Source: Alphaproteobacteria bacterium (GTDB taxonomy: Bacteria > Pseudomonadota > Alphaproteobacteria > Puniceispirillales > Puniceispirillaceae). From it: a stretch of DNA of 45,584 nucleotides. Of this stretch, positions 15,424 to 16,760 are shown piece after piece. Positions within the stretch are counted from its first letter, which is position 1. Every line of letters begins with the position of its first letter. The position numbers and the translations under genes are program-made. Below the pieces are notes generated by a model, which was not told the DNA's origin, made no database searches, and was given only the letters and a program-made list of their open reading frames with translations. The stretch is taken from contig RGCC01000003.1 of the NCBI GenBank assembly GCA_009919335.1, positions 1 to 45,584 of the forward strand, read 5' to 3'.

Positions 15424-15815
15424 TGCGTAGATGTTGGGTTTAGCCCCACAAAAATCAACTGCATTATTGCTGTAAAGGTGAGGGGGGGCAAGAAATCGCA
15501 CCCTTGATCACTCGATATTAAGTGTTCTCAAATTTTTTTGCAAAAAAAGCCCGCGCCAAATTAGCTGTAGGCTTTGTTACGACTGTAGCATTTTGACAAC
15601 CGCACTTTGTTTACAGATAAAAACAACCAACAATGTTGTTTGCCTGCCTATTGATGCTTGGTTGCGGTTTATGGACTATAGCACTCTGGTGATTGAGGAC
15701 CTATAGCAACCTACTTTGTGTATTTATGTATATAAGTCCTTAAAAAACTCGGCAGTGCGGCATTTTGGGTGGCGCTGCAAAAAACGCATCATATTCATGC
15801 AAAAACAAGCCTTCT
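15424..15815. other. Gene-free region with a possible promoter
   Basis: I see no coding frame here. TTGACA at 15593-15598 followed after 16 bases by AGATAA (15615-15620) is a fair sigma-70 promoter pointing right. Just beyond lies a short palindrome (AACAAC 15622-15627, GTTGTT 15635-15640, with an inner CAACA-A-TGTTG). It could start a longer precursor of the predicted small RNA or act as an operator. This is suggestive only. Confidence 0.25.
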
Positions 15816-15844
15816 TTGCATAATGATTTACCGCTAAACAATAA
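15816..15844 (+). promoter_or_regulatory. Putative promoter of the predicted small RNA
   Basis: TTGCAT at 15816-15821 and CAATAA at 15839-15844 are separated by 17 bases. The predicted start is at about 15851, where a G-rich run begins, which fits the 5' end of the structured RNA described next. Confidence 0.4.
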
Positions 15845-15850
15845 CACCTA

Positions 15851-15985
15851 GGGAGGGGGTCCGGTGGTTATCAGGAATTGCCATCGGGCCTTACCTCTCT
15901 ACGACACCCAAATTCATTTCCTCCAGCCGAATTTGGACTAACCGGCCTCACTGCCTTCCTCCCCCAGGCAGTGGGGCCTTTTTTT
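15851..15985 (+). ncRNA. Predicted trans-acting small RNA with anti-Shine-Dalgarno loops (AbcR/CcsR-like design)
   Basis: About 135 bases with no coding frame, a promoter in front and a strong intrinsic terminator behind. Three hairpins can be drawn by hand. First: 15858-15867 with 15881-15890 (10 pairs, two G-U), 13-base loop containing AGGA. Second: 15908-15915 with 15929-15936 (8 perfect pairs), 13-base loop ATTTCCTCCAGCC. Third: 15944-15955 with 15967-15978 (12 pairs, one G-U), loop TTCCTCCCCCA, followed by seven T. Two of the loops therefore expose CCUCC, complementary to ribosome-binding sites, as in AbcR, suhB/alpha-r and CCUCCUCCC-motif (CcsR, 'cuckoo') RNAs of alphaproteobacteria. 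The G-rich 5' end can alternatively pair with the terminator loop. The family match is by design, not by sequence identity. Confidence 0.55.
15944..15985 (+). terminator. Intrinsic terminator of the predicted small RNA
   Basis: A 12-bp stem (15944-15955 with 15967-15978, one G-U pair), an 11-base C-rich loop, and a T7 run at 15979-15985. This is one of the strongest terminators in the window, yet no protein gene ends here, which is what drew attention to the RNA upstream. Confidence 0.85.
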
Positions 15986-16133: not shown

Positions 16134-16304
16134 ATGACTTTGTTTTTAGCGACGAATGCAATCCGAGAAACGCGTCACACACGCCAGTCAAAGCCATTCA
16201 CGGTCATCCGCACCGTCGATAGAGCCCTCAAAGTCGGGGCTTTGATTGCTGCAATGTCGATTATTGCTGCCTGCAGCGGTGTCCCGCTGATACCGGGAAT
16301 TTAG
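16134..16304 (+). CDS. Small predicted lipoprotein, 56 aa
   Basis: An ATG six bases after TTGGGAG opens a 56-codon frame ending in TAG. Residues 1-30 are basic (RETRHTRQSK), then a hydrophobic stretch LIAAMSIIAAC with the lipobox IAAC at residues 45-48. Lipidation on that cysteine would leave a mature peptide of only nine residues (CSGVPLIPGI minus none). This is odd, since the basic leader is unusually long and the mature part tiny. It may be a real tiny lipoprotein, a secretion signal remnant, or a fortuitous frame. It lies between the small RNA and a second tiny lipoprotein gene. Confidence 0.4.
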   Translation: MTLFLATNAIRETRHTRQSKPFTVIRTVDRALKVGALIAAMSIIAACSGVPLIPGI

Positions 16305-16426: not shown

Positions 16427-16537
16427 ATGAAAAAATCTGCACTAACAATCGTCCTTTTAGCCAGCTGCCTTGCCTTTGGCGCATGCTCCAGCTATCCAAC
16501 ATGGGTTCCAGAATGGGCGCAAGTTGGCGCTAAATAA
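16427..16537 (+). CDS. Tiny lipoprotein, 36 aa
   Basis: An ATG behind AGGGG encodes 36 residues: MKK, a hydrophobic stretch (ALTIVLLASCLAF), the lipobox FGAC with cysteine 20, and a mature peptide of 17 residues (CSSYPTWVPEWAQVGAK) with two Trp. It has the form of the entericidin-like and other very small lipoproteins that are often missed in annotation. The ribosome-binding site and classical signal peptide make it convincing. Its function is unknown. It lies about 220 bases before the threonate dehydrogenase gene, with its own spacing, so it is probably a separate transcription unit. Confidence 0.65.
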   Translation: MKKSALTIVLLASCLAFGACSSYPTWVPEWAQVGAK

Positions 16538-16760
16538 TCCCCATTGAAATCCGCCCCGACGTCGTAATGCGCATCTAGGTTGCGTCTTATTGCGGCTTGC
16601 ATAACTTCGTTGGCGGCGTTTAGCGACCTCGATAGCACAGCGGTTTTCCTGTGCTATTGTTGTTTGTGCTATAATTTGGCGCATCTATGACCGAACGCAG
16701 CGGCCAACGCTATATTGCCATTAATTGAGGCGGCGGCGCGAAACACGAGGATTAATAACC

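Follow-up and report, generated by a model that had tools for sequence, protein, structure and literature searches.

A putative nitrogen-linked small RNA with two anti-Shine-Dalgarno loops and a LysR-type box in SAR116 bacteria

Structure and conservation of the RNA element

The window analyzed here is a 45,584-nucleotide stretch of genomic DNA from a member of the SAR116 group (Puniceispirillaceae), and within it a gap without genes holds a predicted small RNA (sRNA) preceded by a candidate control region (Table 1). The sequence-only reading of this gap had proposed three hairpins, a very strong terminator, and the motif CCUCC in the second and third loops, and each of these was borne out. 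No credible open reading frame was found in 15851-15985, the longest having 41 codons from a TTG. Folding of the same interval recovered hairpins H1, H2, and H3 with an MFE of -63.3 kcal/mol, compared with -43.4 +/- 3.8 for shuffled sequences (z = -5.2; 0 of 200 shuffles were as stable), and CCUCC was exposed in both loop 2 and loop 3 of the MFE fold. A genome of the same species (G101, 2.40 Mb) holds a near-identical copy of the sRNA, and there H3 is the sole intergenic T-tailed hairpin whose stem has 8 bp or more and whose loop holds CCTCC; when the intergenic DNA of G101 was resampled ten times with a first-order Markov model, such hairpins numbered 0.0 on average. The analysis thus confirmed the hairpins, the terminator, and the CCUCC of both loops, and the element is, very probably, a genuine regulatory sRNA.

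Other parts of that reading fared less well. The first two loops had been described as equal in size at 13 bases, and loop 1 has 11 nt in the MFE fold. A promoter-like pair had also been claimed; a sigma-70 consensus scan of the plus strand just upstream returned no promoter, and a LysR-type box was found instead. Loop 1 does contain AGGA, as stated, while the suggestion that it mimics a ribosome-binding site found no support, since the loop is not kept beyond the two nearest species. Just 3' of the sRNA lie two very small lipoprotein-like reading frames of 56 and 36 amino acids (16134-16304 and 16427-16537), and a second strong terminator-like hairpin of 11 pairs (16630-16659) separates these small lipoprotein genes from a dehydrogenase-like gene.

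Table 1. Features of the sRNA locus, in window positions
Feature	Position	Strand	Details
Candidate LysR-type operator	15774..15790	+	GCTGCAAAAAACGCATC (TGCA-N6-GCAT, T-N11-A); -75 to -63 from hairpin 1
Promoter module	15772..15863	+	In G101 and G008, also in the promoter of a gene for a peptide-type solute-binding protein; ATGCAAA-N11-TTTGCAT at 15797-15821
Predicted sRNA	15851..15985	+	5' end predicted from where hairpin 1 begins and from the box spacing
Hairpin 1 (H1)	15851..15899	+	18-bp G-rich stem with 2-nt bulge; loop UAUCAGGAAUU at 15869-15879
Hairpin 2 (H2)	15908..15936	+	Loop AUUUCCUCCAGCC at 15916-15928; UUUCCUCC at 15917-15924
Hairpin 3 (H3) and intrinsic terminator	15944..15985	+	H3 at 15944-15978; loop UCCUCCCCC at 15957-15965; T7 at 15979-15985

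Two of the checks proposed with the sequence-only reading were a new covariance model built from SAR116 relatives and a search for compensatory changes in the stems; both came out in its favor. A DNA search located a copy in genome G008 that is 86% identical, promoter included, and a covariance model built from the window and G008 (R1) retrieved one member each from G035 and G023, which belong to a second genus. The member in G040 was added by a scan downstream of the LysR-type box, and a second covariance model (R2) added G030 as well as G027, which belongs to a third genus. The family thus comprises eight genomes in three genera, all with three hairpins and with CCUCC- or C-rich loops 2 and 3. 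The three-hairpin fold was obtained for all seven distinct family sequences, with z between -2.5 and -6.7 according to how much flanking sequence was folded; loop 2 reads UUUCCUCC(C), UUCCUCC, or a C-run, and loop 3 reads UUCCUCCCC(C), UCUCCUCC, UUCUCCCCC, or CCUCCCCCC. In the alignment of the family (A6), 94.4% of the consensus-structure cells pair. Both sides of the stem were altered in 11 of 24 pairs, a level reached in 0 of 500 shuffles (slid controls gave 0 to 2), and hairpin 3 showed compensatory changes in 7 of its 12 pairs. Hairpin 2 has the same position and a C-rich loop in all members by folding, with a stem that cannot be aligned across genera.

Among 385 Alphaproteobacteria genomes, no convincing member was found outside the Puniceispirillaceae, and within this group a detectable copy was present in only about 8 of 61 genomes, which indicated that the RNA is patchy or fast-evolving. 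Lower-scoring matches to R1, R2, and a further model, R3, were rejected, as they lacked both a box at the right position and the three-hairpin layout with CCUCC, and they resemble plain terminators, coding DNA, or opposite-strand sequence. The RNA family is unlisted in Rfam, and a literature search found no described sRNA for SAR116.

The upstream box and the genes that share it

The first element of the control region is the near-palindrome GCTGCAAAAAACGCATC. Its core, TGC-N7-GCA, occurs at -75 to -55 from hairpin 1 in 8 of 8 sRNA members, with 0.034 occurrences expected per 100 nt; since the models that retrieved four of these members did not contain the box, its presence serves as an independent confirmation. 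When up to two mismatches were allowed, the consensus GATGCAAAAAACGCATC was matched in 55 of the 61 family genomes and was rare with the pattern read backwards. About half of the best box sites examined fall in the divergent intergenic region between glnK-amtB, which encodes a P-II protein and a marine-type ammonium transporter, and a LysR gene with the Pfam domains HTH_1 and LysR_substrate. In G101, the two best box sites of the entire 2.4 Mb are the sRNA promoter and this glnK/LysR region. From position and motif type, we infer that the box is bound by the product of the LysR gene next to glnK, and under the control of such a regulator the RNA would probably be made during nitrogen limitation. 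Further box sites precede genes for urea UrtA (urtA), aminoethylphosphonate PhnS2 (phnS2), and cysteate sulfo-lyase, as well as a peptide solute-binding protein gene; urea, aminoethylphosphonate, and cysteate are plausible nitrogen sources.

The region between glnK-amtB and the divergent LysR gene carries a perfect GATGCAAAAAAYGCATC box across the family, at six loci inspected and at others. This suggests that a LysR regulator controls ammonium uptake, even though many family genomes also encode NtrC. The idea that SAR116 lacks NtrC was considered and rejected, because NtrC and a second, neighboring NtrC-family protein are encoded in genome G000 and in most of its genus.

The peptide-type solute-binding protein gene (C35 of G008; about 1160888-1161130 in G101) adjoins a gamma-glutamyltransferase-like gene. 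Its promoter and first transcribed bases are homologous to the sRNA promoter, which suggests that one arose by duplication of the other. A box-like intergenic site, GATGCAAAAATTGCACT, was also observed on the minus strand at 1171312 of G101, in a long stretch without called genes close by, and possibly marks a further unannotated transcript.

Candidate targets among solute-binding protein genes

The heptamer UUCCUCC is common to loop 2 and the start of loop 3, where its first U closes hairpin 3, and it is complementary to GGAGGAA. GGAGGAA occurred in 17 of the 2163 start regions of G101, and 15 of these 17 genes encode exported proteins, mostly solute-binding proteins; the genes were called by a purpose-written script and export was assigned by a simple signal-peptide or Tat rule, both of which are crude. 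Thirteen of the 17 carry solute-binding domains in Pfam (three DctP, three NMT1_3, three TctC, two SBP_bac_5, one SBP_bac_8, and one Peripla_BP_6), and the remaining four encode a protein that is TctC-like by eye, a small Tat protein, a TauD-family enzyme, and a glutamine-synthetase-domain protein. Where GGAGG was present without the following AA, 21 of 113 start regions belonged to exported genes (P = 3e-8). Among 614 heptamers in G101, GGAGGAA had the strongest association with exported genes (P = 5.6e-12), the next (P = 2.8e-5) being one that overlaps it.

The tail of 16S rRNA pairs with GGAGGU, not with GGAGGAA, so that the two As of GGAGGAA are left unexplained by ribosome binding alone. 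Moreover, since only 2 of the 17 genes are not exported, high expression alone is unlikely to be the cause. Simple duplex energies calculated for the loops separated exported genes hardly better than did those of the 16S tail; therefore, the heptamer test alone was used as evidence for targets. On the basis of these energies, glnK, amtB, the LysR gene, and the solute-binding protein gene that shares the sRNA promoter were rejected as top targets, and nitrogen-regulated binding proteins were not among the top targets either. The ntr operon, a strong target in S. meliloti, was likewise rejected here, because its genes pair weakly. The GGAGGAA bias was measured in G101, a genome with the sRNA, and could predate the RNA. 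In that genome, hardly any ribosome-binding sites with GGAGGAA belong to genes other than those for solute-binding proteins, a bias that may be of interest in its own right.

Relation to known RNAs and proposed function

A search of Rfam at gathering cut-offs returned only tRNAs, and the sub-threshold matches other than those to ar14 and sX13 were chance-like. Membership in a listed family of the AbcR or suhB type, as had been suggested from the sequence alone, was not upheld, for neither the AbcR (ar15) nor the suhB (RF00519) model gave a match up to E = 10. The anti-Shine-Dalgarno loops of AbcR silence ABC transporter mRNAs, with the LysR-type protein LsrB/VtlR as activator (PMC7486931, PMC10746234), and the vtlR/lsrB gene normally lies beside trxB (PMC7486931). 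Unlike AbcR1 and AbcR2 (ar15) of rhizobia, Agrobacterium, and Brucella, the SAR116 sRNA is not next to a trxB-linked LysR gene. It resembles sX13 of the Xanthomonadaceae (RF02232) in being a hairpin RNA with C-rich loops, and the terminator hairpins align at 22.4 bits; however, this score is below the cut-off of 50, hairpins 1 and 2 are unmatched, and the taxon is distant.

The closest known system is NfeR1/ar14 (RF02344, the 'cuckoo' RNA family) of Sinorhizobium meliloti. NfeR1 is a nitrogen-responsive, three-hairpin anti-Shine-Dalgarno RNA that is activated by the LysR protein LsrB through a TGCA-N6-GCAT box at -72 to -60, and transport mRNAs, chiefly those for ABC binding proteins, are its main predicted targets (PMC10746234). 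The SAR116 RNA is like NfeR1 in its three hairpins, its length (roughly 120 to 135 nt for the two), its anti-Shine-Dalgarno loops, its link to nitrogen, its predicted binding-protein targets, and its TGCA-N6-GCAT box, which lies at -75 to -63 in the window and within -75 to -55 in all eight members. In contrast to NfeR1, which has three identical CCUCCUCCC motifs, the SAR116 RNA carries UUUCCUCC and UCCUCCCCC in its loops, with CCUCC in loops 2 and 3 only, no anti-Shine-Dalgarno motif in hairpin 1, and the full CCUCCUCCC in none.

These likenesses raise the possibility that the SAR116 RNA is a diverged orthologue of ar14/NfeR1, related by descent rather than being an independent anti-Shine-Dalgarno lineage, and acting by the same mechanism. 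Although ar14 was the best sub-threshold match in Rfam (24.1 bits for the window and 30.1 for G008), and although the hairpin number, the box distance (PMC10746234), and the nitrogen link agree, we consider such descent unlikely. Both scores are well below the gathering score of 58.8 bits, and the same search recovered ar14 in an Ensifer genome at 96 to 117 bits; hairpin 1 departs from the rhizobial motif, and no member was found between SAR116 and rhizobia among the 385 genomes of the class. The activator also appears to differ, as trxB in SAR116 has no LysR neighbor and the best matches to LsrB in four SAR116 genomes were only 28 to 30% identical, so that the SAR116 LysR protein is not supported as an LsrB orthologue.

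A second alternative, that the hairpins form a cis-acting leader or attenuator controlling read-through into the downstream small lipoprotein or dehydrogenase genes, draws on the same-strand genes that follow (16134, 16427, and 16725) and is very improbable, given the very strong terminator, for which no alternative fold is evident, the distance of about 150 nt from it to the next start, and the different genes that adjoin the RNA in other genera. Least probable of all is that the RNA uses the AGGA of loop 1 to act as a CsrB/RsmY-like protein sponge or to mimic a ribosome-binding site, because it has a single such loop whereas Csr/Rsm RNAs carry several GGA loops, and in genera g10 and g4 the AGGA loop is missing from hairpin 1.

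Instead, the element is probably a trans-acting RNA, linked to nitrogen and under LysR control, that blocks the ribosome-binding sites of mRNAs for transporters in the manner of NfeR1 and AbcR. It has a conserved structure, an unpaired anti-Shine-Dalgarno sequence, its own terminator, and, in G101, complementarity to the start regions of a coherent gene set. The original proposal of an sRNA with two anti-Shine-Dalgarno loops is accordingly supported, as far as sequence comparison can carry it, by the compensatory stem changes, the conserved C-rich loops and box, and the heptamer match to binding-protein start regions. A LysR-type regulator, most likely the one divergent from glnK-amtB, would bind the box at about -75 to -63 and, under nitrogen scarcity, would activate the trans-acting sRNA of approximately 135 nt (15851-15985) together with the genes for ammonium, urea, and peptide uptake. 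UUCCUCC in loops 2 and 3 would then pair with the GGAGGAA in the ribosome-binding sites of certain mRNAs, chiefly those for periplasmic solute-binding proteins of TRAP, tripartite tricarboxylate, and ABC transporters, and lower their translation, so that the cell would reduce its other uptake systems during induction of the transporters that scavenge nitrogen. Computation established a conserved fold, the presence of the box together with the set of genes that share it, and the match of the loops to the start regions of binding-protein genes. The evidence for the structure and the regulon is strong, and that for the targets is good, though statistical in nature; both the signal and the sign of the regulation are inferred.

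More tentatively, SAR116 may have independently built a circuit of the NfeR1/AbcR type, in which an unrelated LysR protein switches on ammonium and organic-nitrogen uptake while the UUCCUCC-loop RNA silences binding proteins with GGAGGAA sites, making up a switch between carbon and nitrogen uptake. SAR116 is an abundant bacterial group of the surface ocean, and the sRNA may govern the choice of nutrients taken up under nitrogen scarcity. If the proposed function is true, the pairing of an anti-Shine-Dalgarno sRNA with a LysR box some 70 bp upstream would appear to be a recurrent circuit design beyond rhizobia. A named RNA, an operator, a candidate regulator, and a short list of targets would then tie the control of ammonium uptake to the choice of imported substrates, and post-transcriptional nitrogen control in oligotrophic marine bacteria would become directly testable.
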